The position numbers were made by a program, and so were the translations under genes. This document shows positions 9,015 to 40,142 of a stretch of DNA of 40,142 nucleotides, piece by piece; the first letter of the stretch is position 1, and every line of letters starts with the position of its first letter. The DNA comes from an uncultured Oscillospiraceae bacterium (GTDB lineage Bacteria > Bacillota > Clostridia > Oscillospirales > Ruminococcaceae). The DNA lies in contig CASEAH010000014.1 of assembly GCA_949285935.1 (NCBI GenBank), positions 1-40,142 of the forward strand, written 5' to 3'. The notes beneath the pieces were generated by a model, which did not search any database, was not told the DNA's origin, and saw only the letters and a program-made list of their open reading frames with translations.

Positions 9015-9155
9015 TTATTGCTGATCTTTTTTCTCCGGGAAAAGAGCGCCCAGCGCCCGAATCACCAGGTAAATGACGATCATGACCAGGAAAATGCCGC
9101 CCATCCCGGCGCCCAGCACCGGCAGCGTGGCCAGGAATGCGTCCACAGAGATCAT
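9015..9155 (-). CDS. 46-residue single-helix membrane peptide, OadG-like position
   Basis: The ATG at 9153-9155 has GAGG eight bases upstream and gives a 46-residue product: a short N-terminus MISVDAFLATLPVLGAG, one hydrophobic helix (GGIFLVMIVIYLVIRALGAL) and a charged tail FPEKKDQQ. Position and topology resemble the gamma subunit of sodium-translocating decarboxylases (OadG, one membrane helix), which anchors the complex, but this is about half the usual gamma length and lacks the hydrophilic C-terminal domain. It lies 37 bases after the beta-subunit gene and is surely co-transcribed. An OadG role is inferred from context, not from a diagnostic motif. Confidence 0.7.
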   Translation of the reverse strand: MISVDAFLATLPVLGAGMGGIFLVMIVIYLVIRALGALFPEKKDQQ

Positions 9156-9192: not shown

Positions 9193-10344
9193 TCAGCGGG
9201 CAATCAGGCTGAGGATCAGGCCGCCGGCGATGACCGATGCGATCTGTCCGGAAACGTTGGAGCCCACGGCGTGCATGAGCAGGAAATTCTGGGGATCCTC
9301 CTTGAGGCCCATGCGGTGGATGACCCGGGCCGACATGGGGAAGGCGGAGATGCCGGTGGCGCCGATCATGGGGTTGATCTTCTCCTTAAGGAAGAGGTTG
9401 AGGAACTTGGCAAAGAAAACGCCGCCCACGGTATCAAAGACAAAGGCCACAAGGCCCAGGCCCATAATGAGGATGGTTGCGCCGGACAGGAACTGGTCGG
9501 CCTGCATCTTGGTGGAGATGGTGATGCCCAGCAGCAGGGTGACCAGGTTGGCCAAAGCGTTCTGGGCGGTTTCGGACAGGCTGCCCAGGACGCCGCATTC
9601 CCGGATCAGGTTGCCGAACATCAGGAAGCCCACCAGAGCCACGGAACGGGGAGCCAGCAGTCCTGCAATGACGGTGATGATAATGGGAAACAGGATCTTG
9701 GTGGTGCGGGAGACGCCCCGGGGGTTGTATTTCATCCGGATCATCCGCTCCTTGCGGGTGGTAATAGCCCGGATGACGGGAGGCTGAATAATGGGCACCA
9801 GAGCCATGTAGGAATAGGCGGCCACAAAGATCGCCCCTTTGAAGGGAGTATCAAAGTAGTTGGCCACAAAGATGGAGGTGGGGCCGTCCGCCGCGCCGAT
9901 GATGCCGATGCAGGCGGCGTCCTGAATGCCGAAATCATAGCCCATGCTCTGGAACATGGGGGTAAAGAGGCTGGCCAGGCTCAGGGTAAAGAAAATACCG
10001 AACTGGGCTGCCGCGCCAAAGAGGAGCATCTTGGGGTTGCTCAGGAGGGGGCCGAAGTCGATCATGGCGCCGATGCCGATAAAGAGCAGCAGCGGGAGCA
10101 GCTCATTCTGGATGGTGGCGTTAAAGAGCACATCAATGATGCCGTGCTCGGTGGCCCCTTCCACCACCTGGTCCACCGCGCCGGAAAAGGGCAGGTTTAC
10201 CAGAATGGCGCCAAAGCCCATGGGCAGCAGCAGGGCGGGCTCCATCTGATACCGGATGGCCAGAAAGATCAGCAGACCGCCGATGGCCCACATGATTACC
10301 ATGGGCAGGGTCAGGTTCTGCAGGTTGCCGAACAATGCTTCCAT
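9193..10344 (-). CDS. oadB: Sodium ion-translocating decarboxylase beta subunit (OadB/GcdB/MmdB family)
   Basis: 383 residues from the ATG at 10342-10344 (AAAGGA nine bases upstream; the frame continues 20 codons further without a better start). It is a polytopic membrane protein with family motifs: ALLLPMGFGAILVNLPFSG (near 35), GIGAMIDFGPLLSNPKMLLF, and IGIIGAADGPTSIFVANYF, corresponding to the conserved GGADGPT sodium-site segment. OadB-type subunits couple decarboxylation of carboxybiotin to Na+ export. No biotin-carrier or carboxyltransferase gene is adjacent, so its partner subunits must be elsewhere or it acts with other partners. A yybP-ykoY-like riboswitch and terminator sit between its promoter and start codon. 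Confidence 0.9.
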   Translation of the reverse strand: MEALFGNLQNLTLPMVIMWAIGGLLIFLAIRYQMEPALLLPMGFGAILVNLPFSGAVDQVVEGATEHGIIDVLFNATIQNELLPLLLFIGIGAMIDFGPLLSNPKMLLFGAAAQFGIFFTLSLASLFTPMFQSMGYDFGIQDAACIGIIGAADGPTSIFVANYFDTPFKGAIFVAAYSYMALVPIIQPPVIRAITTRKERMIRMKYNPRGVSRTTKILFPIIITVIAGLLAPRSVALVGFLMFGNLIRECGVLGSLSETAQNALANLVTLLLGITISTKMQADQFLSGATILIMGLGLVAFVFDTVGGVFFAKFLNLFLKEKINPMIGATGISAFPMSARVIHRMGLKEDPQNFLLMHAVGSNVSGQIASVIAGGLILSLIAR

Positions 10345-10402: not shown

Positions 10403-10446
10403 AAAGAAAAAAGACCGTCCCCGCCTGTGACGGAAAAAGTCTTGCT
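10403..10446 (-). terminator. Riboswitch-controlled terminator upstream of oadB
   Basis: On the minus strand AAGAC and CCGTC pair with GACG/GTCTT around the loop ACAGGCGGG, followed by TTTTTTC. The left arm uses the GCAAGAC end of the riboswitch aptamer, so forming the aptamer P1 helix and forming this terminator are mutually exclusive, as expected for an ON switch. Confidence 0.65.
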
Positions 10447-10525
10447 TTTTATAGTATCCGCGGGCGGGGATCCCCACCGTCATGACGCGGGATACGACAG
10501 ACTTGCTGCAAGCTACTCCCTTTTT
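10433..10525 (-). promoter_or_regulatory. yybP-ykoY-type (Mn2+) riboswitch aptamer
   Basis: The minus-strand RNA carries both conserved metal-binding segments of the yybP-ykoY family: AAAAAGGGAGUAGC at the 5' side (10525 down to about 10512) and AGCAAGACUUUUU at the 3' side (about 10447 down to 10434). AAAAAG and CUUUUU close helix P1. Between them a stem GUAUCC(C)GCG/CGCGGAUAC encloses the GGGGAUCCCC hairpin. The known class senses Mn2+ and normally turns on Mn exporters; here it precedes oadB. Identification is from memory of the consensus, not a covariance search. Confidence 0.75.
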
Positions 10526-10535
10526 ACTCTTCCTA

Positions 10536-10541
10536 AATATA
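10536..10541 (-). promoter_or_regulatory. Extended -10 promoter for the riboswitch-oadB transcript
   Basis: TGG-TATATT on the minus strand places the start at about 10529, directly before the riboswitch aptamer. The -35 region is only A/T-rich (TTTATT at a 17-bp spacing). Confidence 0.5.
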
Positions 10542-10593
10542 CCACAGCTTTTTTAAAAAATAAAGGGTATGGTTTACAAAAATTTTCCGGTAT

Positions 10594-11115
10594 TTACCGC
10601 CGGTTGTGGCCGCTGCGCACAAGGGGAACTGGGATGCCACCCTCTTCCTCCCGGGACGGCTGGGAAAGCCCCGTACCCTGCGCGGAAAGGCTTTGCGGGC
10701 ATGAAGGCATCACAGGCCGGTTGTTGCCGCCGGAGACGGTGCCGGAAGTTTCCGGGGCCCGGCCTGAAGTCGTGGCCTTCCCGGCGGTATTCCCCATTTC
10801 TGCCGGGAGACATTTCCCCGTAGCGGATGCTGGGTCCTCGCCGGCCAGCCCCTGCAAAAGCAGCGCTGCGTCTCCCAGGACCCCACGGTCCAGACGGTAG
10901 CAGGTCCTTCGCCCCTGACGGCAGGGAATCACCAATCCGCAGACGGTGAGGATTTTCATATGATGGGAAAGGGTGGCCTGCCCCACTGGCAGTTCCTCCA
11001 GCAGCCGGGCGGCCCACAGCTCCTCCCGGGCCAGGGCAGCGACGATCTGCAAGCGGTTGGGTTCCGCCAAAGCATCCAGAACCGTACAAATTTTTTTAAA
11101 ATCCCCCACAGTCAT
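10594..11115 (-). CDS. ArsR family winged-helix repressor with a long C-terminal extension
   Basis: The first ~95 residues are a complete ArsR-type winged helix: LAEPNRLQIVAAL (near 16), recognition helix GQATLSHHMKILTVCGLV (near 45-62) and wing CRQGRRTCYRLD. The alpha-3 CxC metal site of classical ArsR is absent, but Cys10, Cys59, Cys65 and Cys72 are present, leaving metal or persulfide sensing possible. From about residue 95 a Gly/Ser/Pro-rich tail with no recognisable fold continues to residue 173; ArsR proteins are normally 95-120 residues. Its start faces the TauE/SafE genes, with a perfect palindrome in between, so it probably represses both directions. By analogy to BigR-type regulators of TauE-like exporters, a sulfur signal is a plausible inducer (inference). 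Confidence 0.85.
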   Translation of the reverse strand: MTVGDFKKICTVLDALAEPNRLQIVAALAREELWAARLLEELPVGQATLSHHMKILTVCGLVIPCRQGRRTCYRLDRGVLGDAALLLQGLAGEDPASATGKCLPAEMGNTAGKATTSGRAPETSGTVSGGNNRPVMPSCPQSLSAQGTGLSQPSREEEGGIPVPLVRSGHNRR

Positions 11116-28102: not shown

Positions 28103-28379
28103 GTCAATTTTACGGGAATGGCGGCAGTACGGCAGAAGGAGGCGGGAGCATGGGTCCTTTCCATCGGTTTGCGGCTGAGGGAAAAGTCAGGGTCCTGTCC
28201 TGTCTGCGGTCTCCGAGGATTCTCCCGGGGGCTTTGTTGTCCGCCGCCGCAGGGGAGAACCGTCCTTTGACCGGAATAAAGGCGGAAGTGTAACCAGGGC
28301 CGTGGTGCAGTTATGTACCATAGCCTTTTTTATTTTTGCCAAAACCACCGGCATACTGCCGGCACAGGAGGAGAATTTT
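28103..28379 (+). promoter_or_regulatory. Long structured purE leader, candidate attenuator
   Basis: About 277 nt between promoter and purE start, with inverted elements GGATTCTCCC (from 28208) and GGGGAGAACC (near 28252-28261) and a late hairpin followed by T-run (listed separately). I cannot match it to the purine, PRPP, ZTP or THF riboswitch consensus. Confidence 0.35.
28298..28337 (+). terminator. Candidate attenuator terminator upstream of purE
   Basis: GGCCGTGGT (28298-28306) pairs with ACCATAGCC (28317-28325), one mismatch and one G-U, followed by TTTTTTATTTTT. It precedes the purE start by about 40 bases, so full read-through would have to be regulated or inefficiently stopped. Confidence 0.5.
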
Positions 28380-28874
28380 ATGGAACAGAAAACAGTAGCG
28401 GTCATCATGGGCAGCGACAGCGACCTGCCCGTGGTGGAGAAAGCCATCAAACAGCTGCGGGAGCTGCATATTCCGGTGGAGGCCCATGTCATGAGCGCCC
28501 ACCGCACCCCGGAGGCGGCCTGCGCCTTTGCCCGGTCTGCCCGGGATAACGGCTTTGGCGCCATCATTGCCGCGGCGGGCAAGGCGGCCCATCTGGCCGG
28601 CGTGCTGGCGGCTCACACCACCCTTCCCGTTATCGGCATCCCCATCAAGTCCTCCACCCTGGACGGCCTGGACGCTCTGCTGGCCACCGTCCAGATGCCC
28701 GGGGGCATCCCCGTGGCCACGGTAGCCATTGACGGGGCCCAGAACGCTGCTCTGCTGGCGGCCCAGATGCTGGCCATCGGAGACGGCGCCCTGGCGGCCC
28801 GGCTGGATGCCATGCGGGAGGACATGACCCGCGCAGTGATGGAAAAGGACCGGAAGCTTCAGGAAAGCCTGTGA
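28380..28874 (+). CDS. purE: 5-(carboxyamino)imidazole ribonucleotide mutase PurE
   Basis: 164 residues from the ATG at 28380 with CAGGAGGAG upstream. PurE interconverts N5-CAIR and CAIR in purine synthesis. Motifs: [14 protein letters not shown] (phosphate-binding SDSD loop, near 10), [11 protein letters not shown] (near 38) and [20 protein letters not shown], then [14 protein letters not shown] and [11 protein letters not shown]. The SAHRTP motif is class I-like (N5-CAIR substrate), though the usual GGAAHLPGM has GKAAHLAGV here. No purK, which would supply N5-CAIR, is in the operon. It is the first gene of the purine operon. Confidence 0.95.
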
Positions 28875-29106
28875 TCTCCCCAAGCCGGGACAGGCCTGCA
28901 CCCCTCCGGGCCCCTGAGGAATAGCCGGCGGCGTGCCTGCCCACCCGCCGGAGAAAGCCCGGGAGCCCCGGCCATGGCGCCAGGCCCTTGCCGGACCGGC
29001 CCGTTGCCCGCGGTGCGGCAGAATGCGGCGACGCGGGGTACAGATGATACGTTTCACCCCGGAAAATAAAACCGATATACCATAGAGAATAAAGGAGACG
29101 AAGAAC

Positions 29107-29817
29107 ATGAAAAAACTGGAACAGCTGTACGAAGGAAAAGCCAAAAAAGTCTTTAAGACCGACGATCCCGAACTGTACATCGTGGACTACAAGGACGATG
29201 CCACCGCCCTCAACGGTCTGAAAAAGGGCACCATCGCCGGCAAGGGCGTCATCAACAACCGGGTCACCAACCATCTGATGAAGATGCTGGAAAAGCAGGG
29301 CATCCCCACCCATTTTGTGGAGGAGCTCTCTGAGCGGGAGACCCTGGTGAAAAAGGTCTCCATCGTACCCCTGGAGGTAATCGTCCGCAACATCGCCGCC
29401 GGCTCCCTGGCCAAGCGGGTGGGCGTTCCCGAGGGCACCAAGCTGGGCAGCACCGTGCTGGAGTACTGCTACAAGGACGATGCCCTGGGCGATCCCATGG
29501 TCAACGAGTATCACATCGCCGCCATGGGCTGGGCCACCCGGGAGGAGATGGAGACCATCGCCTCCTATGCCCTGAAGATCAATGAGATCCTTACCGCCTA
29601 CCTGAAGGACCTGAACATTGAGCTGATCGACTTTAAGCTGGAGTTTGGCAAGCTGAGCGACGGCACCATTGTCCTGGCCGATGAGATCAGCCCCGACACC
29701 TGCCGCTTCTGGGACAGCGTTACCAAGGAAAAACTGGACAAGGACCGCTTCCGCCGGGATATGGGCGGCGTGGAGGACGCTTACCAGGAGATCATGAAGC
29801 GTCTGATGGGCGAATAA
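29107..29817 (+). CDS. purC: SAICAR synthetase PurC
   Basis: 236 residues, standard length. It joins CAIR and aspartate with ATP to SAICAR. It starts [20 protein letters not shown] and has the ATP/substrate segments [20 protein letters not shown] and the DELSPDT equivalent [13 protein letters not shown] near 198, followed by [12 protein letters not shown]. The ATG follows AAAGGAGACGAAGAAC. A 232-bp GC-rich spacer separates it from purE, containing small hairpins but no convincing terminator. Confidence 0.96.
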
Positions 29818-29936
29818 CACCCTTTCGCTTCCAATTTTACCGTGGCAAACGGCAGACAGGGAGATTCCTGCCGGGATAATCCGGGCGGGAATCCCCGGCT
29901 TTTGCCCCGGCATACGCGATACAGAGGAGGAAAACC

Positions 29937-31361
29937 ATGGGAGGCTTTTTTGGAGCCGTCTCCAAACGGGACGTTACGCTTGACATTTTCTTTGGGGTGG
30001 ATTACCACTCCCATCTGGGCACCCGCCGGGGCGGCATGCTGATTCACGACGCAAAGGACGGCTTTCAGCGCCAGATCCATTCCATTGAGAACAGCCCCTT
30101 CCGCACCAAGTTTGAAAGGGACCTGAACGAATTCCACGGCTGCAGCGGCATCGGGTGCATCAGCGACGCCGATCCCCAGCCCCTGCTGGTGCGCTCCCAC
30201 CTGGGACTGTACGCCATCACCACCGTGGGCATCATCAACAACGCCGAGGAGCTGATCGGACAGTACTTTGCCGACCACGGCCACCAGTTTATGGCCATGA
30301 GCTCCGGCAAGGTCAATGTTACCGAGCTGACCGCCGCCCTTATCAACCAGAAGGAGGATCTGGTCTCCGGCATCCTCCACGCCCAGCAGCAGATCCAGGG
30401 CTCCCTCACCCTCCTCATCCTCACCGACCGGGGCGAGATCATCGCCGCCCGGGACGCCATGGGCCGGCTGCCCGTGCTGGTGGGCAAAAGCCCCGAGGGA
30501 CACTGCGTCTCCTTTGAATCCTTTGCCTACCACAAGCTGGGCTATACCGACGCCTATGAGCTGGGACCCCGGGAGATCGTCCGGATTACCGCCGACGGGT
30601 ACCAGACCCTCTCCCCGGCGGGAAAGGACATGAAGATCTGCGCCTTCCTCTGGACCTACTACGGTTACCCCAACTCCAACTATGAGGGGATGAACGTGGA
30701 GGTGATGCGGTACCGCAACGGTGAGATCATGGCCCGGGATGAAATAGCCCGGGGACAGCTGCCGGCGGTGGACTATGTGGCCGGCGTCCCCGATTCCGGG
30801 GTCCCCCACGCCATCGGTTTTGCCAACCGCAGCGGCAACTCCTTTGCACGCCCCTTTGTCAAGTATACCCCCACCTGGCCCCGTTCCTTCATGCCTGCCA
30901 ACCAGGAGGTGCGCAACCAGGTGGCCAAGATGAAGCAGATCCCCGTTCCCGAACTCATCGAGGGGAAGAAACTCCTCTTCGTGGACGACTCCATTGTCCG
31001 GGGCACCCAGCTGCGGGAAACGGTGGAGTTCCTGTACGCCTCAGGGGCACAGGAGGTCCATATGCGTTCCGCCTGTCCCCCCATCATGTACAGCTGCAAG
31101 TATCTGAACTTCTCCCGGGGCAACTCCGACATGGACCTGCTGGCCCGGCGCACCATCCAGGAGCTGGAAGGAGACGAGGGGCAGCGCCACCTGGAGGAGT
31201 ACGCAGACGGCACCACCAAGCGGGGCCGCTGCATGCTGAGTACCATCTGCAAAAAATTCGGTTTCACCTCTCTGGGCTACCAGTCCCTGGACGGCCTGCT
31301 GGAGGCCATCGGCCTGGACCGGAGCAAGGTGTGTACCTACTGCTGGAACGGCAAGGAATGA
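29937..31361 (+). CDS. purF: Amidophosphoribosyltransferase-like PurF without the catalytic Cys
   Basis: 474 residues. PurF makes 5-phosphoribosylamine from PRPP and glutamine, the first committed purine step. The PRTase half is intact: PRPP loop LLFVDDSIVRGTQ (346-358) and VAGVPDSGVPHA. The C-terminus has ACPPIMYSC and CTYCWNG, matching the cysteines that bind a [4Fe-4S] cluster in B. subtilis-type PurF. The N-terminal glutaminase domain begins MGGFFGAVSK where active PurF begins with the nucleophile Cys directly after Met (MCGIFG) or after a propeptide: Cys is replaced by Gly and the GTRRGGM, NN (100-102) and RDAMGRLP segments deviate from canonical. The ATG has GGAGGA directly upstream and there is no alternative start with a Cys. 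It may use free ammonia or another amidotransferase. Confidence 0.9.
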   Translation: MGGFFGAVSKRDVTLDIFFGVDYHSHLGTRRGGMLIHDAKDGFQRQIHSIENSPFRTKFERDLNEFHGCSGIGCISDADPQPLLVRSHLGLYAITTVGIINNAEELIGQYFADHGHQFMAMSSGKVNVTELTAALINQKEDLVSGILHAQQQIQGSLTLLILTDRGEIIAARDAMGRLPVLVGKSPEGHCVSFESFAYHKLGYTDAYELGPREIVRITADGYQTLSPAGKDMKICAFLWTYYGYPNSNYEGMNVEVMRYRNGEIMARDEIARGQLPAVDYVAGVPDSGVPHAIGFANRSGNSFARPFVKYTPTWPRSFMPANQEVRNQVAKMKQIPVPELIEGKKLLFVDDSIVRGTQLRETVEFLYASGAQEVHMRSACPPIMYSCKYLNFSRGNSDMDLLARRTIQELEGDEGQRHLEEYADGTTKRGRCMLSTICKKFGFTSLGYQSLDGLLEAIGLDRSKVCTYCWNGKE

Positions 31362-31436
31362 GAATCCCCTGACTTTTGGACTTCCCTGTTTTCCCCCGCG
31401 TCCGGGGGTTCATCACGACAATCTGGAGGTTTGGAA

Positions 31437-32474
31437 ATGAAAAACTCCCACTCTGCGTCCTACGCCGCCGCCGGCGTGGATGTCACCGCCGGCTACCGGG
31501 CTGTGGAGCTGATGAAGGCCCATGTGGCCCGCACCGTCACCGACGGCGTCCTCAGCGGCATCGGCGGCTTCGGCGGACTGTTTGAACTGGATATGACCGG
31601 CCTGACCCGGCCGGTGCTGGTTTCCGGCACCGACGGTGTGGGCACCAAGCTGAAGCTGGCTTTCCTCATGGACAAGCATGACACCGTGGGCATCGACTGC
31701 GTGGCCATGTGTGTCAACGACGTCATCTGCTGCGGCGCCCGGCCTCTTATTTTCCTGGACTACGTGGCGGTGGGCAAGAACGTCCCTGAGCGGGTGGCCC
31801 AGATCGTCTCCGGTGTGGCCGAAGGCTGCGTTCAGGCGGGCTGCGCCCTCATCGGAGGCGAAACTGCCGAAATGCCCGGCTTCTATCCCGCCGACGAGTA
31901 TGACCTGGCAGGCTTTACCGTGGGCGTGGTGGACAAGGCCCGCATTCTGGACAACACCCGGATGAAAGAAGGGGATGCCCTCATCGCCCTGCCCTCCTCC
32001 GGCGTCCACTCCAACGGCTTCTCCCTGGTGCGCAAGGTTTTTGAGGTGGAGAAGGGCGGCCTGGACCGCTACTGCGACGAGCTGGGCCGTACCCTGGGCG
32101 AGGCCCTGCTGGAGCCCACCCGCATCTATGTCAAGCCTGTCCTGGCCCTGCTGGAGCAGGCGGATGTTTCCGCCATCAGCCACATCACCGGCGGCGGCTT
32201 CTATGAGAATATTCCCCGGGCCCTGGCTCCCGGCTTTACCGCCCGCAGCGAAAAGGCCCGGGTCCAGACCCCTCCCCTTTTCGATCTGATCCGCAAGGCC
32301 GGGAACATCCCGGAGCGGGATATGTTCAACACCTTCAATATGGGCGTGGGCATGTGCGTCACCGTGGCTGCTGCCGATGCCGACAAGGCAGTGCGGGTCC
32401 TGCGGGAGCAGGGCGTGGACGCCTACATCTGCGGCGAAGTGGTCCGGGGCGAAGGCGGTGTGGAGCTGTGGTAA
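31437..32474 (+). CDS. purM: AIR synthetase PurM (phosphoribosylformylglycinamidine cyclo-ligase)
   Basis: 345 residues from the ATG at 31437 (GGAGG seven bases upstream; a TTG two codons earlier is not used). PurM closes FGAM to AIR with ATP. Motifs: [14 protein letters not shown] (near 64), [30 protein letters not shown] (near 141), [11 protein letters not shown] and [13 protein letters not shown] (near 242). The family signature DGVGTK and GGETAEMP are intact. The following purN gene overlaps its end by seven bases. Confidence 0.96.
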
Positions 32475-33082
32475 GGGTCGCGGTACTGGTGTCGGGAGGC
32501 GGCACCAATCTTCAGGCCATCATTGACGCCAAGGCTGCCGGCAAGATCCCCAGCGCCCAGCTGGCCCTGGTGGTGTCCAGCAAGTACGGCGTCAAGGCTC
32601 TGGACCGGGCCAAGGCGGCGGGGATCCCCTGCTGCGCGGTGCGCCGGGCGGGCTACGCCAGCGGGGAGGATTTTGACGACGCCCTCCTGGCCGTCCTGCA
32701 GGACCATCATATCGACTTTGTGGTGCTGGCGGGCTTTTTGTGCATCCTGGGCCCCAGGATCCTGGAGGCCTACCGGGACCGGATCATCAATGTACATCCC
32801 AGCCTGATCCCTGCCTTCTGCGGGGACGGCTTTTACGGGCTTCGGGTCCATCAGGCCGCTCTGGACCGGGGGGTCAAGGTCACCGGAGCCACCGTCCACC
32901 TGGTCAACGAGATCACCGACGGCGGACGCATCCTTCTCCAGAAGGCGGTGGATATCCGGGAGGACGACACCGCCGAGACCCTCCAGCGGCGGGTGATGGA
33001 GGAGGCGGAGTGGCAGATCCTGCCCCGGGCGCTGGAACTGTGCTGCCGGGAGCTGGCGGACCATGAGAACAAGGAGGAATAA
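32468..33082 (+). CDS. purN: GAR transformylase PurN (10-formyl-THF dependent)
   Basis: 204 residues. It starts at a GTG at 32468 that lies inside the last codons of purM, giving [20 protein letters not shown], the standard PurN beginning; no ATG fits. PurN formylates GAR using 10-formyltetrahydrofolate. Active-site residues: Asn and His in [19 protein letters not shown] (near 100) and Asp in [15 protein letters not shown] (near 135). The ribosome binding site is weak (GGAG two bases before), suggesting translation coupled to purM. Confidence 0.93.
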
Positions 33083-33085
33083 ACC

Positions 33086-33805
33086 GTGGAAAAAATGGAC
33101 CTGATGGCCCTGCTTCGGGGGAACAGCTACCCCGGCCGGGGCATTGTCATCGGCAAGAGCGCCGACGGCGGCAGCGCCGTGATCGCCTACTTTATCATGG
33201 GCCGCAGCGAGAACAGCCGCAACCGCATCTTTGTGGAGACGGAGGACGGCATCCGCACCGAGGCCTACGACCCCTCCAAGGTCACCGATCCCTCCCTCAT
33301 TATCTATCATCCCGTGCGGGAGCTGGAAAACCTGACCATCGTCACCAACGGCGACCAGACCGACACCATCTGCGACGTAATGGACTGCGGCGGCGAATTT
33401 GAGGAAGCCCTGCGGACCCGGACCTTTGAGCCGGACGGCCCCAACTGGACCCCCCGCATCTCCGGGCTGGTCACCTGGTACCACTGCCGCAAGGACTTTG
33501 AGATGCAGATGTCCATCCTCAAAAGCGCCGACGGCAACGGCGACTACGTCCAGCGTCAGTTCTTTGATTACCCTGGCCTGCCTGCCGGAGAAGGGCGCTT
33601 CCTCCACACCTACAAGTGCGACGGAAACCCCATCCCCTCCTTTGAGGGCGAGCCGGAGCGGGTGGCCCTGGAAGGGGACATCGACGCCTTTGCCGCCCGC
33701 CTGTGGGAGAGCCTCAATGCCGACAACAAGGTATCCCTTTTCGTCCGCTACATAGACCTTGCCACCGGCGAGGCCGATACCCGCATCATCAACAAGCATT
33801 GCTGA
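33086..33805 (+). CDS. PurO-type IMP cyclohydrolase
   Basis: 239 residues from a GTG at 33086 with AAGGAGG eight bases upstream. It resembles the archaeal PurO family (PF07826), an NTN-fold IMP cyclohydrolase unrelated to the PurH N-terminal domain: GNSYPGRGIVIGKSADGGSA, AYFIMGRSENSRNRIFV, DPSLIIYHPVRELENLTIVT, NGDQTDTICD and FEPDGPNWTPRISGL. It would catalyse the last step, FAICAR to IMP. It lies directly between purN and the AICAR transformylase gene, which lacks its own cyclohydrolase domain, so the pair replaces bifunctional PurH. Recognition is from motif memory; the context makes it convincing. Confidence 0.85.
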   Translation: MEKMDLMALLRGNSYPGRGIVIGKSADGGSAVIAYFIMGRSENSRNRIFVETEDGIRTEAYDPSKVTDPSLIIYHPVRELENLTIVTNGDQTDTICDVMDCGGEFEEALRTRTFEPDGPNWTPRISGLVTWYHCRKDFEMQMSILKSADGNGDYVQRQFFDYPGLPAGEGRFLHTYKCDGNPIPSFEGEPERVALEGDIDAFAARLWESLNADNKVSLFVRYIDLATGEADTRIINKHC

Positions 33806-33856
33806 AGGCGGGAGCGGGCCTGACCCCTCCCCCTTCCCCTTGAAAGGAGTGTTCCC

Positions 33857-35032
33857 ATGGCTACCCAACTGGAACTGAAATATGGCTGCAACCCCAATCA
33901 GAAGCCTTCCCGGATCTTTATGCAGGAGGGCCAGCTTCCCCTTGAGGTCCTTAACGGCCGTCCCGGCTACATCAACTTCCTGGACGCCCTCAACAGCTGG
34001 CAGCTGGTGAAGGAGCTGAAGGCGGCCACCGGCCTGCCCGCCGCCGCTTCCTTCAAGCATGTAAGCCCCGCCGGCGCCGCCGTGGGCCTGTCTCTCAGCG
34101 ACACCCTGCGGAAGATCTATTTTACCGGCGACGGGGAGCTGTCCCCTCTGGCCTGCGCCTATGCCCGGGCCCGGGGCGCCGACCGCATGTCCTCCTTCGG
34201 GGACTGGATCGCCCTTTCCGACGTCTGCGATCTGCCCACCGCCCGTCTCATCCAGCATGAGGTGTCGGACGGCATCATTGCCCCCGGCTATGACGACGAC
34301 GCTTTGGAGGTGCTCAAATCCAAGCGCAAGGGGGGCTACAACATCGTCAGGATCGACCCCGACTATGTTCCCGCTCCGGTGGAGCACAAGGATGTGTTTG
34401 GCATTACCTTTGAGCAGGGCCGCAACGAACTGAAGATCGATGCCGGGCTGCTGGAAAACGTGGTCACCGTCAACAAGGAGATCCCGGAAAGCGCCAAGAT
34501 CGACCTGGTGCTGGCCCTCATTGCCCTGAACTACACCCAGTCCAACTCGGTCTGCTACGCCAAGGACGGCCAGGTCATCGGCGTGGGCGCCGGACAGCAG
34601 TCCCGGATCCACTGCACCCGCCTGGCGGGCAACAAGGCAGATATCTGGTGGCTGCGGCAGCATCCCAAGGTGCTGGCCCTGCCCTTCCGGGAGGACATCT
34701 CCCGCCCCAACCGGGACAACGCCATCGACGTCTATATCTCCGACCAGAGCGAAGATGTACTGGGAGAGGACGTCTGGGCCGAGACCTTCTCCACCCGGCC
34801 GGAGCCCCTGACCCCGGAGGAGAAGCGGGAGTGGCTGGAAAAGCTGGACGGGGTTTCCCTGGGCAGCGACGCCTTCTTCCCCTTTGGCGACAACATTGAG
34901 CGGGCCCGCCGCAGCGGCGTGCGGTATGTGGCCGAGCCGGGCGGCTCCATCCGGGACGATCAGGTCATTGCCACCTGCGACAAGTACGGCATGGCCATGG
35001 CCTTCACCGGCATCCGCCTGTTCCATCACTGA
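33857..35032 (+). CDS. purH: AICAR transformylase (PurH C-terminal domain only)
   Basis: 391 residues corresponding to the AICARFT part of PurH, with no MGS-like cyclohydrolase domain. It starts MATQLELKYGCNPNQKPSRI and has FKHVSPAGAAVG (the catalytic Lys-His pair KH, near 66), SFGDWIALSD, NYTQSNSVCYAKDGQVIGV, GAGQQSRIHCTRLAG, SDAFFPFGDNIERARR and PGGSIRDDQVIATCDKYG. It transfers a formyl group from 10-formyl-THF to AICAR giving FAICAR. The ATG follows GAAAGGAG. A typical full PurH is about 515 residues, so this one is the stand-alone form known in Clostridia. Confidence 0.94.
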   Translation: MATQLELKYGCNPNQKPSRIFMQEGQLPLEVLNGRPGYINFLDALNSWQLVKELKAATGLPAAASFKHVSPAGAAVGLSLSDTLRKIYFTGDGELSPLACAYARARGADRMSSFGDWIALSDVCDLPTARLIQHEVSDGIIAPGYDDDALEVLKSKRKGGYNIVRIDPDYVPAPVEHKDVFGITFEQGRNELKIDAGLLENVVTVNKEIPESAKIDLVLALIALNYTQSNSVCYAKDGQVIGVGAGQQSRIHCTRLAGNKADIWWLRQHPKVLALPFREDISRPNRDNAIDVYISDQSEDVLGEDVWAETFSTRPEPLTPEEKREWLEKLDGVSLGSDAFFPFGDNIERARRSGVRYVAEPGGSIRDDQVIATCDKYGMAMAFTGIRLFHH

Positions 35033-35131
35033 GAAAGACGCTCCCCGGGAGCAGGACGCTGGCCGCCCAAGGAGGCGGCAGACCGGCCCCGGGGAGGACA
35101 GTATGACTGTTTGACCGGGAGGAAACTCTGT

Positions 35132-36418
35132 ATGAAGCTTCTGGTAGTAGGCGGAGGCGGCCGTGAACACGCCATCATCCGCAAACTGAAAGAAAACCCC
35201 ACTGTTACCGAGATCCACGCCCTGCCGGGCAACGGCGGCATCGCTCAGGACGCTGTCTGCGCCCCCATTGCCGCCACCGATATCCCCGGTGTGGTGGCCT
35301 ATGCCCGGGAGCATGCCATTGACTTTGCCGTGGTGGCTCCTGACGATCCCCTTTGCCTGGGCATGGTGGACGCCCTGGCCGAAGCGGGCATCCCCGCCTT
35401 TGGCCCGGACAAGAAGGCCGCCATCATCGAGGGCAGCAAGGTCTTTTCCAAGGACCTGATGAAAAAGTACGGCATCCCCACAGCGGATTACCGGGTTTTT
35501 GACGACCCGGCCAAGGCCCTGGCCTATGTGGAGGAAGAGGCTCCGGTGCCCCTGGTAGTCAAGGCCGACGGCCTGGCGCTGGGCAAGGGCGTTCTCATCT
35601 GCGCCACCCGGGAGGATGCCCGTCAGGCGATCCATGAGATCATGGAGGACAAGGTCTTCGGCCAAAGCGGCAGCCGGGTGGTCATTGAGGAGTTCCTCAC
35701 CGGCCCGGAGGTGTCCGTCCTCAGCTTCACCGATGGGGAAACGGTAGTGCCCATGGTGTCCTCCATGGACCACAAGCGGGCCCTGGACGGCGACAAGGGC
35801 CTGAACACCGGAGGTATGGGCACGGTGGCCCCCAACCCCTATTACACCCCCCAGGTGGCCCGGGAATGCATGGAGACCATCTTCCTGCCCACCATCCGGG
35901 CCATGAAGGCCGAGGGCCGTCCCTTCCGGGGCTGCCTCTATTTCGGCCTGATGCTTACCCCCAAGGGCCCCCGGGTCATTGAGTATAACTGCCGCTTCGG
36001 CGACCCCGAGACCCAGGTGGTGCTTCCCCTGCTCAAGAGTGATCTCCTCACCATCATGGAAGCCACTGTCAAGGGCACCCTGGCCCAGACTCCGGTGGAG
36101 TGGAGCGACGGCAGTGCCTGCTGCGTCATCCTGGCCAGCGGCGGATACCCCCAGTCCTACCCCAAGGGGCTGCCCATTTCCGGGCTGGAAAAAGGCCAGA
36201 TCCCCGGGTGTGACGCCACCGTCTACCACGCCGGCACCAAGGTCCGGGAGGACGGCGCCCTGGTTACTTCCGGCGGGCGGGTACTGGGCGTCACCGCCAC
36301 CGCACCCACCCTGCGGGAGGCAGTGGACAAGGCCTATGCCGCCAGCGACCGGATCACCTTTGAAGGGGTCCACCGCCGCAGCGACATCGGCGCCCGGGCG
36401 CTGGCCGCCCTGGGCTGA
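35132..36418 (+). CDS. purD: GAR synthetase PurD
   Basis: 428 residues from the ATG at 35132 with GGGAGG nine bases upstream; the frame opens at a TTG seven codons earlier that overlaps the ribosome binding site. PurD ligates phosphoribosylamine and glycine to GAR with ATP. ATP-grasp motifs: LLVVGGGGREHAI at the start, VVKADGLALGKGVLI (near 148), MDHKRALDGDKGLNTGGMGT, and YFGLMLTPKGPRVIEYNCRF followed by GDPETQ. The 3' neighbour is purL, 83 bases away. Phosphoribosylamine from PurF is unstable, so co-production of PurF and PurD is sensible. Confidence 0.96.
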   Translation: MKLLVVGGGGREHAIIRKLKENPTVTEIHALPGNGGIAQDAVCAPIAATDIPGVVAYAREHAIDFAVVAPDDPLCLGMVDALAEAGIPAFGPDKKAAIIEGSKVFSKDLMKKYGIPTADYRVFDDPAKALAYVEEEAPVPLVVKADGLALGKGVLICATREDARQAIHEIMEDKVFGQSGSRVVIEEFLTGPEVSVLSFTDGETVVPMVSSMDHKRALDGDKGLNTGGMGTVAPNPYYTPQVARECMETIFLPTIRAMKAEGRPFRGCLYFGLMLTPKGPRVIEYNCRFGDPETQVVLPLLKSDLLTIMEATVKGTLAQTPVEWSDGSACCVILASGGYPQSYPKGLPISGLEKGQIPGCDATVYHAGTKVREDGALVTSGGRVLGVTATAPTLREAVDKAYAASDRITFEGVHRRSDIGARALAALG

Positions 36419-36501
36419 AAGCAGGACGGAGCGCCCTGTTCCTGGCTTTTGCCGGCGGAGCGCCATTCCTGACACAACTCAGTAAGATTGGGAGAGAAAC
36501 C

Positions 36502-39500
36502 ATGTCTGTTTTCAGAATCTATGTGGAAAAACGTAAGCCCTACGACGTGGAAGCCATGGGCTTCCTGACGGAGATCCGGGATCTGCTGGGCATTACCGGA
36601 GTCACCGGCCTGCGCCTGCTCAACCGCTACGATGTGGAGGGCATGGACGAAGACCTGTTCCGCCGGTGTCTGCCCATTGTCTTTTCCGAGCCGCAGCTGG
36701 ACGTGACCTGGGACACCCTGCCCCAGGGCGCCGATGCGGTTTTTGCCACCGAGTACCTGCCCGGCCAGTTTGACCAGCGGGCCGATTCCTGTGCCGAGTG
36801 CATCCAGCTGGTCTCCCAGGGGGAGCGCCCCCTGGTGCGCACCGCCCGGGTGTTCCTCCTTTCCGGCTCGGTTTCCCCCGAGGAGCTGGCCCGGATCAAA
36901 AAGTATTTCATCAACCCCGTGGAGAGCCGGGAGGCGGATCTGGCGGAGAAGTCCACCCTGGCGGTGGAATATCCCGTCCCCGATCATGTGGAGACCCTGG
37001 AGGGCTTTACCGCCCTGGACCGGGCGGGCCTGGAGGCCTTTGTGGCCCGGTACGGCCTGGCCATGGATGTGGATGACGCCGCTTTCTGCCAGGAGTATTT
37101 CCGCTCCGAGGGGCGCAACCCCACCATTACCGAGGTGCGGATGATCGACACCTATTGGTCGGACCACTGCCGCCATACCACCTTCGGCACCATTCTGGAC
37201 CATGCGGAGATTGCTGACAGCGACGTCCGCCGGGCCTATGACCGGTATCTGGACCTGCGCCGGGAGCTGGGCCGGGAGGGCAAACCCATCACCCTGATGG
37301 ATATGGCCACCATCGGCGCCCGGTACCTGAAGCACCAGGGCCTGCTGGAGAATCTGGACCAGTCGGAGGAAATCAACGCCTGCTCCATCCACATCACGGT
37401 GGACAACGGCGGCCGGGATGAGGACTGGCTGCTGATGTTCAAGAACGAGACCCACAACCACCCCACCGAGATCGAGCCCTTTGGTGGGGCCGCCACCTGC
37501 ATCGGCGGCGCCATCCGGGATCCCCTCTCCGGGCGGAGTTATGTGTATCAGGCCATGCGTGTCACCGGCGCCGCAGATCCCCTGCGCCCGGTGGAGGACA
37601 CCATGCCCGGCAAGCTTCCCCAGAGGAAGCTGGTGACCACCGCCGCCGCGGGCTACAGCTCCTACGGCAACCAGATCGGCCTTGCCACCGGCCAGGTGGA
37701 TGAGCTGTACCATCCCGGCTATGCCGCCAAACGGATGGAGATCGGCGCGGTGGTGGGCGCGGCTCCCGCTGCCAACGTCCGCCGGGAGCGGCCCCAGCCC
37801 GGAGACGTCATTGTGCTGCTGGGCGGCCGTACCGGCCGTGACGGCTGCGGCGGCGCCACCGGTTCTTCCAAGGCCCACGGTCTCCAGAGCCTGGAGACCT
37901 GCGGCGCCGAGGTGCAGAAGGGCAACGCCCCTGTGGAACGGAAGCTTCAGCGGCTGTTCCGCAATCCCCAGGTCACCCGCCTGATCAAGCGGTGCAACGA
38001 CTTTGGCGCCGGCGGCGTTTCGGTAGCCATCGGCGAGCTGGCGGACGGCCTGGCCATCGACCTGGACGCCGTGCCCAAAAAATATGACGGCCTGGACGGC
38101 ACCGAGCTGGCCATCTCCGAGAGCCAGGAGCGGATGGCCGTGGTGCTGGATGCCGGGGATCTGGATACCTTCCTGGAAAAAGCCGGGGAGGAGAACCTGG
38201 AAGCCACTCTGGTGGCCCGGGTCACGGAGGAGCCCCGTCTGCGGATGACCTGGAAAGGCCGCACCATTGTGGATATTTCCCGGGAATTCCTCAACTCCAA
38301 CGGTGCGGAAAAGCACGCCTCGGTGGCGGTGCCTGCCGCCCGGGTGGAGGACCGCTCTCCCGTCCGGGGCAGCACCCTGGAGGAGAAGTTCCGCAGCCTG
38401 ATGACCGACCTGAACACCTGCTCCCGCAAGGGGCTTTGCGAGCGGTTTGACAGCACCATCGGCGCGGCTACGGTGCTGATGCCCTTTGGCGGCCGCACCC
38501 AGCTGACCCCCGCTCAGGCCATGGCCGCCAAGCTGCCGGTGGAGGGCGAGACCACCACCTGCTCCGGTATGGCCTGGGGCTTCAACCCCTTCCTTTCGGA
38601 GCAGAGCCCCTACCACGGCGCCTACCTGGCAGTGGTGGAGAGCGTTTCCCGGCTGGTAGCCTCCGGCTTCAGCCGCAAGGATACCTACCTTACCTTCCAG
38701 GAATACTTTGAGCGGCTGCGCACCCAGCCCCAGCGCTGGGGCAAGCCCTTTGCCGCCCTGCTGGGAGCTCTCAGCGCCCAACTGGACCTGGGGATCGCCG
38801 CCATCGGCGGCAAGGACAGCATGTCCGGCAGCTTTGAGGATCTGGATGTGCCCCCCACCCTGGTGTCCTTCGCCGTGGCTCCCGGCAAGACCGACCGGGT
38901 CCTTTCCCCCGAGTTCAAGAAAGCCGGCAGCCGTCTGGCCCTTCTTTCCGCCGACCCCTTTGATTCCAAAGCTTGCCTGGCCCTGCTGGACCAGGTGGAA
39001 GAGCTGATCCGGGAGGGCAAGGTACTGGCCGCCGCAGTCCCCGGCCATGGCGGCGTGGCCGAAGCCCTCTTCAAGATGGGAGCGGGCAACCGCCTGGGCG
39101 TGGAAATCGATCCTTCCTTTGATGAGAAGAAGCTCTTTGGCTGGCAGTACGGCAGCTTTGTGCTGGAGCTGGCCGACGGCGCCGACGCAGGCGTCCTCCT
39201 GGGCCGCACCACCGATGCCTATACCTTCTCCGCCGGCGGCGAGACGGTGGATCTGGCGGGTGTACGGGAAGCCTGGGAGAGCAAGCTGGAACCGGTTCTT
39301 CCCTATCGCTCGGCCCCCGGCAGCCAGACCGCTCCGGTGGAAACCGTGACCTTTGCCGCCGCCAGCCGCAAGGCCCCCAAGGTGGGGATTGCCCGGCCCA
39401 AGGCCCTGATCCCCGTCTTCCCCGGCACCAACTGCGAGTATGACACCGCCCGGGCGCTGCGCCGGGCAGGAGCCGACCCGGAGATCATGGTGCTGCGCAA

Positions 39501-40142
39501 CCTGACTCCCGGCGATGTGGCGGAAAGTATCCGCCGGATGGAGCAGCTGATGGGTCAGAGCCAGATCGTGGTCATTCCCGGCGGCTTTTCCGGCGGCGAC
39601 GAGCCGGACGGCTCCGGCAAGTTCATCACCGCATTTTTCCGCAATCCCCGGATCACCCAGGCGGTCCATACCCTGCTGGACAGCCGTGACGGCCTGATGC
39701 TGGGCATCTGCAACGGCTTCCAGGCCCTCATCAAGCTGGGCCTGGTGCCCTATGGCCGGATCATTGACACCGACCAAAGCTGCCCCACCCTCACGTTCAA
39801 CACCATCGGCCGCCACCAGAGTATGCTGGTGCGCACCCGGGTGGCCTCCAACCTCAGCCCCTGGCTGTCCCGGTGCTCTGCCGGAGACGTCCACACGGTG
39901 GCGATTTCCCACGGAGAGGGCCGCTTTGTGGCTCCTCAGGAACTGATCGCCCAGCTGGCTGCCGCCGGTCAGGTAGCAACCCAGTATGTGGATCTGGAAG
40001 GCAATCCCACCATGGATCTGCGGCATAATCCCAACGGCTCCCTGTGGGCCATTGAGGGCATCACCTCTCCCGACGGCCGCGTCCTGGGCAAAATGGGCCA
40101 CAGCGAGCGCAGCGGCAACGATCTGTACAAAAATGTGGAGGG
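36502..40142 (+). CDS. purL: FGAM synthetase PurL, large single-chain form (3' end cut off by window)
   Basis: 1,213 residues to the window edge with no stop, so only about 20-50 residues of the roughly 1,250-residue protein are missing. It converts FGAR, glutamine and ATP to FGAM. Layout: N-terminal PurS-like region (1-150), linker with TYWSDHCRHTTF (near 214), two AIRS-like halves with FKNETHNHPTEIEPFGGAAT and GGRTGRDGCGGATGSSK, then GGKDSMSG, and a C-terminal glutaminase with PGTNCEYDTARAL, nucleophile Cys in LGICNGFQAL and the His in ISHGEGRF. So unlike PurF this protein keeps a complete glutaminase. The ATG follows GGGAGAGAAACC. The plus-strand frame is uninterrupted. Confidence 0.95.
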   Translation, partial: MSVFRIYVEKRKPYDVEAMGFLTEIRDLLGITGVTGLRLLNRYDVEGMDEDLFRRCLPIVFSEPQLDVTWDTLPQGADAVFATEYLPGQFDQRADSCAECIQLVSQGERPLVRTARVFLLSGSVSPEELARIKKYFINPVESREADLAEKSTLAVEYPVPDHVETLEGFTALDRAGLEAFVARYGLAMDVDDAAFCQEYFRSEGRNPTITEVRMIDTYWSDHCRHTTFGTILDHAEIADSDVRRAYDRYLDLRRELGREGKPITLMDMATIGARYLKHQGLLENLDQSEEINACSIHITVDNGGRDEDWLLMFKNETHNHPTEIEPFGGAATCIGGAIRDPLSGRSYVYQAMRVTGAADPLRPVEDTMPGKLPQRKLVTTAAAGYSSYGNQIGLATGQVDELYHPGYAAKRMEIGAVVGAAPAANVRRERPQPGDVIVLLGGRTGRDGCGGATGSSKAHGLQSLETCGAEVQKGNAPVERKLQRLFRNPQVTRLIKRCNDFGAGGVSVAIGELADGLAIDLDAVPKKYDGLDGTELAISESQERMAVVLDAGDLDTFLEKAGEENLEATLVARVTEEPRLRMTWKGRTIVDISREFLNSNGAEKHASVAVPAARVEDRSPVRGSTLEEKFRSLMTDLNTCSRKGLCERFDSTIGAATVLMPFGGRTQLTPAQAMAAKLPVEGETTTCSGMAWGFNPFLSEQSPYHGAYLAVVESVSRLVASGFSRKDTYLTFQEYFERLRTQPQRWGKPFAALLGALSAQLDLGIAAIGGKDSMSGSFEDLDVPPTLVSFAVAPGKTDRVLSPEFKKAGSRLALLSADPFDSKACLALLDQVEELIREGKVLAAAVPGHGGVAEALFKMGAGNRLGVEIDPSFDEKKLFGWQYGSFVLELADGADAGVLLGRTTDAYTFSAGGETVDLAGVREAWESKLEPVLPYRSAPGSQTAPVETVTFAAASRKAPKVGIARPKALIPVFPGTNCEYDTARALRRAGADPEIMVLRNLTPGDVAESIRRMEQLMGQSQIVVIPGGFSGGDEPDGSGKFITAFFRNPRITQAVHTLLDSRDGLMLGICNGFQALIKLGLVPYGRIIDTDQSCPTLTFNTIGRHQSMLVRTRVASNLSPWLSRCSAGDVHTVAISHGEGRFVAPQELIAQLAAAGQVATQYVDLEGNPTMDLRHNPNGSLWAIEGITSPDGRVLGKMGHSERSGNDLYKNVE

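Follow-up and report, generated by a model that had tools for sequence, protein, structure and literature searches.

The closest described systems to the locus treated here are the Mn2+ riboswitches of the yybP-ykoY type (RF00080) and the oxaloacetate decarboxylase Na+ pump OadABG. The metal-site loop of the riboswitch is UCA41AU43UC in L. lactis and ACA48UACU in X. oryzae, and the N7 of the A makes the Mn-specific contact (PMC6754395). In L. lactis, Mn2+ stabilizes P1.1 and prevents termination (PMC11087558). The mgtA leader of S. pneumoniae was described as a Mn/Ca-sensing yybP-ykoY riboswitch (PMC11434433). A further riboswitch, Na+-I (DUF1646), occasionally leads oxaloacetate decarboxylase genes, according to a paper on Na+ (PMC9337991). 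As for the pump, residue roles were described for Salmonella OadB (the beta subunit), where the effects were small for R258A and moderate for R304A and N311A; the protein is structurally related to CitS, NapA and NhaP (eLife.53853). The tail of the Salmonella gamma subunit (residues 61–84) was dispensable for binding to beta, and its loss severely reduced the co-purification of alpha (eLife.53853).

The DNA analyzed is a stretch of 40,142 nucleotides from an uncultured Oscillospiraceae bacterium, referred to as the window. An oadB gene on its minus strand is preceded by a leader RNA with the following parts:

about 10403-10544, minus strand: whole riboswitch element, 5' of oadB, read directly from the sequence
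10536-10544, minus strand: extended -10 promoter, TGG plus TATATT, a consensus match made by eye only
10434-10526, minus strand: aptamer of the yybP-ykoY Mn2+ riboswitch kind, with a short L3 and a three-way junction (P1, P2, P3), placed with models R1 and R2 (see below)
10513-10520, minus strand: L1 segment GGGAGUAG, from the sequence, common to 26 of 27 oadB leaders
10478-10487, minus strand: L3 loop CGUCAUGACG on P3, from the sequence
10483, minus strand: A within L3 that corresponds to the Mn-discriminating A41 of L. lactis, from the alignment of oadB leaders (role of A41 from PMC6754395)
10439-10445, minus strand: GCAAGAC, at once the L1 partner, the P1 3' strand and the start of the left arm of the terminator, from the sequence and a terminator survey
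10407-10443, minus strand: intrinsic terminator (expression platform), a stem at 10411-10443 followed by a U run, overlapping the P1 3' strand, from the fold

Read from 5' to 3', the extended -10 is followed by P1 with L1 (AAAAAGGGAGUAGC), a short P2, P3 with its L3 loop, AAAAAGCAAGACUUUUU and the terminator; the GCAAGAC segment is part of AGCAAGAC on the minus strand. P2 is short and weak and contains mismatches. P4 is missing, and a short unpaired stretch comes after P3, which leaves a three-way junction. Since the solved structures have a four-way junction with P4, the RNA of the window is filed as a variant. By eye, P4 is also absent from streptococcal P-type-ATPase leaders with a short L3. 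This short form of L3, CGUCANN(A)CG, is found in the window and in most of its orthologues. A long form, about GUCAACAUACU, occurs in E. coli mntP and in the RF00080 matches of related genomes (L036 and L038-L040; L037 carries one extra change). The leader of the oadB orthologue L027/L189 (G035:C108), which belongs to the stand-alone type defined below, has a long-L3-like loop, GUCAACAGCACUG, and both L3 forms therefore serve the same gene.

The initial annotation had taken this leader for a Mn2+ (yybP-ykoY) riboswitch and had proposed a search with RF00080. That search found no match in the window, an outcome on which the annotation would itself have given up the reading. Across the full window, no Rfam family reached its gathering score, and RF00080 matched neither the 271 bases around the element at E-values up to 10 nor any place in the window's own genome. 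The best Rfam match of the element (271 bases, E up to 10) was SSRC10 (RF02617), whose score of 20.5 bits (E = 0.086) falls short of its cut-off, 56. RF00080 gives 41.6 bits to the mntP element of E. coli itself, below the cut-off of 45 bits, so that the limit lies with the model and not with the class. Over 61 genomes, RF00080 gave matches at E up to 1 in eight and matches above the cut-off in none; the cut-off was exceeded in two of 14 control genomes. When nine short-form loci were scored, RF00080 passed one (L125, a TerC leader), SSRC10 passed three, all of them streptococcal P-type-ATPase leaders, and five were passed by neither. RF00080 is thus insensitive to the short-L3 subtype.

Model R1, built from an alignment (A1) that included oadB leaders and the window itself, scores 78.8 bits on the window, a sequence of its own training set. 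Model R2 was trained on 28 leaders of P-type-ATPase and TerC genes, with no oadB leader among them, in an alignment made with R1, which had seen the oadB leaders. R2 gives the window 69.2 bits (E = 2.2e-15), the runner-up place in the 40 kb reaching only 12.2 bits, and it recovers all 27 oadB leaders. It also picks up E. coli mntP (33.8 bits) and alx (27.8 bits), both of which lie outside its training.

The helices were examined for covariation. Alignment A1 (MAFFT) holds 40 mixed leaders out of 93 located aptamers, for the scanned ones of which the search pattern had fixed the loops, not the helices. Double changes occur in 24 of 30 pairs, and the covariation is 0.544, as against 0.193 in shuffled alignments and at most 0.182 when the pairing is slid. 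In the 27 oadB leaders alone, double changes occur in 26 of 30 pairs, 90.5% of cells are paired and the covariation is 0.589 versus 0.203 shuffled, in an alignment that was fitted to the structure and so leans towards it. The conserved segments proposed at the outset recur in these orthologues, GGGAGUAG in 26 of 27 and C(A/G)AGAC in all 27. As for folding energies, 10403-10449, which holds the terminator, reaches -15.5 kcal/mol (z = -3.57) and is equaled by none of 200 shuffles, the entire leader barely beats its shuffles (MFE z = -1.42, 13 of 200 as good), and the fold of the aptamer alone is unremarkable (z = -1.62). A chance resemblance, or an unrelated terminator leader, might be argued from the missing RF00080 match and the modest z of the whole leader; it is hardly conceivable in view of the R2 score, far above that of any other place in the window, and of the covariation in orthologous leaders. 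With the fold and the kinship to Mn2+ riboswitches established computationally, the element 5' of oadB is confirmed as a real riboswitch RNA, and the reading of the initial annotation is supported. It is almost certainly a member of the Mn2+ riboswitch class, in the form of a P4-less, short-L3 variant.

Other genes carry the same aptamer. A scan of genome contigs with the short-form pattern gave at least 118 stretches, of which 109 have a downstream ORF of at least 80 aa and nine do not. Target classes were taken from BLAST clustering, with a Pfam check on one representative per class. Among the 109 matches listed, the downstream genes include at least 21 P-type ATPases, at least 20 members of the Na_Ca_ex family, at least 18 TerC and at least 12 OadB proteins, besides at least seven of the CitMHS family, at least seven Na_Pi_cotrans and at least 24 others. 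The CitMHS (L049-type) and Na_Pi_cotrans plus PhoU (L052-type) genes are recurrent targets and thereby further candidate Mn2+-related transporters. The targets are not just transporters: genes of the SPFH/Band_7 and flotillin type lie behind the short-L3 pattern at L108, L122, L160, L089 and L155 (L108 and L155 by BLAST clustering only), as do M48 membrane proteases (L117, L144) and a Zn_peptidase_2 gene (L066). Paired riboswitch matches on a single strand, with spacings of about 0.4 to 3.3 kb, were seen at G153:C199, G034:C48, G056:C21 and G060:C11. It was also observed that RF02617, to judge from the streptococcal leaders L053, L069 and L109, is a Mn2+ riboswitch aptamer, and the class appears to have two Rfam entries whose names are unrelated; the three streptococcal loci that pass SSRC10 appear to be orthologues of the S. 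pneumoniae mgtA leader. Since the Rfam model mostly misses the short-L3 subtype, and the streptococcal cases are held as sRNA, the Mn2+ regulons of Firmicutes are probably undercounted.

The ligand can be approached through the letters of the metal site. Every one of the 27 aligned oadB leaders has A in the discriminator column; 26 have C just before it, and all have C at the position of C45. The discriminator A is likewise present in 28 of 28 P-type-ATPase and TerC leaders, nearly all of which match the oadB leaders in the letters of L1 and L3. A ligand change specific to oadB was considered by comparing L3 across leaders and was rejected, as the difference between CCGC and CCGG is, by eye, a covarying closing pair. 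A Na+ riboswitch was also considered, given that OadB is a Na+ pump subunit and that DUF1646 RNAs have been linked to OAD genes, and was rejected: there is no DUF1646 match above the cut-off in the window, and the L1/L3 core is like that of Mn2+-exporter leaders. There remains the idea that this relative of the Mn2+ riboswitch responds here mainly to another ion, for example Ca2+, and that the transporter handles that ion. The Mn/Ca sensing described for the mgtA leader (PMC11434433) and the frequency of Na_Ca_ex genes among the targets of the same subtype lend it something, but the shared discriminator A and the near identity of L1 and L3 in oadB and exporter leaders leave it only a slim chance. 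We strongly infer that Mn2+ is very likely the ligand of the window's riboswitch in vivo.

It had been noted earlier that the left arm of the terminator reuses the GCAAGAC end. This overlap is present in the window, and in 25 of 27 oadB leaders the terminator hairpin starts inside (G/A)C(A/G)AGAC, from which it follows that the terminator competes with P1. By analogy with L. lactis, the window leader is very probably an ON switch. When Mn2+ is scarce, the P1 3' strand GCAAGACUUUUU would pair into the terminator, and transcription would stop; when Mn2+ fills the site between L1 and L3, P1 would be locked and the terminator blocked, so that oadB and the gene behind it could be made. The two oadB leaders without such a terminator (L172 and L145) may act on translation.

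The two genes behind this leader are the following:

9193-10344, minus strand, ATG at 10344: stand-alone oadB, 383 aa, PF03977 with E = 1.1e-147, in a separate clade
9015-9155, minus strand: mini-oadG, coding for 46 aa with a single membrane helix and lacking the alpha-binding tail, PF04277 with E = 0.0014, under the cut-off

The OadB of the window is about 50% identical to canonical OadB. In the 61 genomes, 26 close relatives including the window's own (E below 1e-140, one per genome) were classed as stand-alone and 47 more distant OadBs as canonical, and a quick tree separates the two groups by a branch whose SH-aLRT support is full. Genes for an alpha subunit within 6 kb (PF02436, or PF01039 at 2.2e-31 or better) accompany none of the 26 stand-alone genes and 24 of the 47 canonical ones, in line with the earlier remark that no alpha or biotin subunit lies beside oadB. 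An R1 element was found upstream of 15 of 26 stand-alone genes and 0 of 47 canonical genes (Fisher 5e-9, kinship ignored), and the riboswitch label needs six changes on the tree of OadBs. R2 gave a single match on 45 canonical oadB loci, at E = 0.7.

These counts were repeated on a held-out sample of 147 genomes of the class, from which previously seen genomes had been removed. The R1 element precedes 12 of 54 stand-alone genes and none of the 90 canonical genes listed (3e-6). Of the 42 held-out stand-alone loci that R1 had left unmatched, 40 were scored with R2, which added one (L292); in 20 canonical loci it gave none. Within about 4 kb, on contigs some of which were shorter, OadA or MmdA was found at 0 of 40 stand-alone and 19 of 20 canonical loci, and a biotin-carrier-like match at one of 40 and 19 of 20, respectively. 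Many stand-alone oadB genes have no riboswitch (11 of 26 in the 61 genomes, 42 of 54 held out); a search for other riboswitches near the 11 such loci of the 61-genome sample at the Rfam gathering score returned just a tRNA. The initial annotation had also suggested looking for alpha and biotin subunit genes elsewhere, and the window's genome does contain a full pump operon at another place, with alpha (PF02436), a 159-aa gamma (PF04277), a biotin carrier (PF00364) and a canonical OadB.

The short gene behind oadB had escaped mention in the initial annotation. A single-helix ORF of 39-68 aa directly follows oadB in 30 of 33 stand-alone genes, these being the ones with enough sequence past the stop, and in one of 25 canonical rows (24 genes), where the ORF is unlike a mini-gamma. 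Most of the stand-alone ORFs are of the form ...GMLGIFVVM... and end shortly after the hydrophobic helix. In the held-out loci, a short ORF (38-71 aa) follows 41 of 42 stand-alone and 0 of 20 canonical oadB genes; the ORF at L260 is of a different look, which leaves 40 of the 41 alike by eye. As the tail of Salmonella gamma binds alpha (eLife.53853) and the stand-alone gamma ends early, the latter resembles a natural tailless form. It would be expected to form a complex with beta and to fail to bind alpha. The tailless gamma and the missing alpha genes, like the separate clade, are results of computation, and the first two are independent of whether a riboswitch is present; they therefore support a stand-alone transporter, not Mn2+.

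Residues were compared in Salmonella numbering between 38 stand-alone and 46 canonical rows (45 genes). E40, D203, Y229, N373, G377, S382, N412 and S419 are unchanged in all stand-alone rows that have a letter there; for the cation site D203, S382 and N412, letters are present in 37, 35 and 34 of the 38 rows, and all are kept. Of 35 stand-alone rows, 32 have S, N or A in place of R304; R258 is replaced in 31 of 36, and N311 is replaced in 16 of 35 and still N in 19. Fixed differences between stand-alone and canonical rows are T148I, G201A, V381I, V384F, V416Q and G418A, with A420V nearly fixed (33 of 34), and several of them adjoin cation residues in sequence. The ion site is thus kept in changed surroundings, and the residues important for decarboxylation are under less constraint.

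These results bear on the reading that OadB is still the beta subunit of a carboxybiotin-decarboxylating Na+ pump, which borrows alpha and the biotin carrier from an operon elsewhere and is induced by Mn2+ because metabolism or the carboxyltransferase uses a divalent metal. The identity to canonical OadB, the conservation of E40, D203, S382 and N412 and the complete alpha-gamma-BCCP-beta operon in the genome are all compatible with it. However, that operon has its own beta and its own long gamma; the stand-alone gamma ends soon past the helix, and the deletion of this tail severely reduces alpha co-purification in Salmonella (eLife.53853); R304 and N311 are relaxed, the latter in part; and the riboswitch precedes canonical OadB in 0 of 47 cases and in 0 of the 94 listed. 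A borrowed enzyme half is thus quite improbable.

The neighborhood of oadB was surveyed for other transporters. In G172, the riboswitch leads an operon in which a Na_Ca_ex-family gene is followed, on the same strand and after about 25 bases, by stand-alone oadB. In G173, stand-alone oadB lies just 5' of a riboswitch and P-type ATPase, and one contig of G107 carries a riboswitch before a GDT1-family gene and another, some 9 kb off, before oadB. These three were picked from same-contig matches and are not a random sample. One query each for P-type ATPase, Na_Ca_ex, TerC, MntP, GDT1, CitMHS and Na_Pi genes gave no match in the surroundings of the remaining 40 held-out loci, so that transporter neighbors of oadB are uncommon (3 of 43). 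The known Mn exporter family MntP occurs in 53 of the 61 genomes as well as in the window's own, and OadB therefore fills no obvious gap; a complementary loss of MntP in genomes with riboswitch-led oadB was looked for and not seen. Of the 15 genomes with riboswitch-led oadB in the 61-genome sample, several of which are incomplete, 12 have no R1 match other than the oadB leader; in G007, which is among the 12, there is in addition an RF00080 match next to MntP.

Two further features of the window were recorded. An ArsR/SmtB-type metalloregulator gene (HTH_5, NF033788) with a long tail past the matched domain lies directly 5' of the riboswitch (10594-11115, minus strand); by eye, the sequence upstream of the element at L007 is not like an ArsR gene. 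Positions 28302-40101 hold what we take to be a long run of purine-biosynthesis genes, and no purine riboswitch was found in the window at the Rfam cut-off.

The neighbors and the residues are also relevant to an indirect role, in which stand-alone OadB would be a Na+/H+ (or Na+) transporter that aids Mn2+ export without carrying Mn2+, for instance by recycling Na+ for a Na+-coupled Mn2+ exchanger. This would agree with the Na+-site residues of Salmonella OadB being kept, with the structural relation of OadB to CitS, NapA and NhaP (eLife.53853) and with the single genome in which oadB follows a Na_Ca_ex-family gene in a riboswitch-led operon. On the other hand, a riboswitch-led Na+-coupled exchanger is usually unseen, given the 12 of 15 genomes (several incomplete) where the oadB leader is the sole R1 match, and the surroundings of the site changed as a group. 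Such a helper function is unlikely.

The explanation that we consider most likely for the whole, with somewhat better than even confidence, is a riboswitch-induced Mn2+-relief transporter that evolved from OadB. OadB and mini-OadG would assemble in the membrane as a beta-gamma complex that has ceased to recruit the biotin-carrying alpha subunit and that acts as an elevator-type cation transporter relieving excess Mn2+. In the simplest case, Mn2+ (perhaps also Ca2+) would be exported against Na+ or H+. Points against this explanation are the many stand-alone oadB genes that lack a riboswitch, the wide occurrence of MntP, the N311 retained in 19 of 35 rows, the missing RF00080 match and the weak P2 of the window. 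Judging from sequence, the gene product probably takes part in Mn2+ relief, and the prediction that OadB itself carries Mn2+ has about an even chance of being right. Tentatively, and marginally short of that, stand-alone OadB with the tailless mini-OadG may be an unrecognized family of Mn2+ (perhaps Mn2+/Ca2+) exporters, which arose from the membrane half of a biotin-dependent decarboxylase pump after the loss of the enzyme half and which came under Mn2+ riboswitches in several Clostridia lineages and in one assembly labeled Treponema. The initial annotation had left two readings side by side. The one in which this OadB exports Mn2+ or supports its export is now favored by the absence of alpha and biotin subunits beside the gene, the pump operon elsewhere, the separate clade and the tailless gamma, and a Mn2+-induced pump is the less favored. 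If the Mn2+-relief transporter is real, a new transporter family would be added to Mn2+ homeostasis, the membrane half of a primary Na+ pump would be reusable without its enzyme, and a whole clade annotated as 'sodium ion-translocating decarboxylase subunit beta' would be misnamed. No report linking oxaloacetate decarboxylase or oadB to a Mn riboswitch or to Mn export was found in the literature searched; the gene lists of Dambach 2015, Price 2015 and Martin 2019, reportedly the defining papers on the riboswitch or its streptococcal case, may mention OadB.

Compared with the yybP-ykoY elements of RF00080 (L. lactis yoaB, E. coli mntP and alx), the RNA of the window shares P1 with L1 (GGGAGUAG/GCAAGAC), P2, P3 and the A of the Mn site, but it has no P4, is missed by RF00080 and has oadB as its target. 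It is of the same L3 type (UCA...) as L. lactis yoaB, for which an overlap with the terminator has also been described, whereas the elements of E. coli and X. oryzae have a longer L3. The streptococcal leader SSRC10 (RF02617) contains the same short-L3, P4-less aptamer, but it is classified in Rfam as an sRNA gene and leads a P-type ATPase instead of oadB. The likeness to the Na+-I (DUF1646) riboswitch is confined to an ion riboswitch standing before an OAD-type gene; the RNA is unrelated, and no DUF1646 match above the cut-off occurs in the window. With the pump OadABG (Salmonella beta, 6IVA/6IWW), the stand-alone system shares the OadB family, the Na+-site residues and a gamma-like membrane helix. 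It differs in lacking genes for alpha and the biotin carrier in its vicinity (one BCCP-like match in 40), in forming a separate clade, in a gamma without the alpha-binding tail and in the relaxation of R304, N311 and R258.
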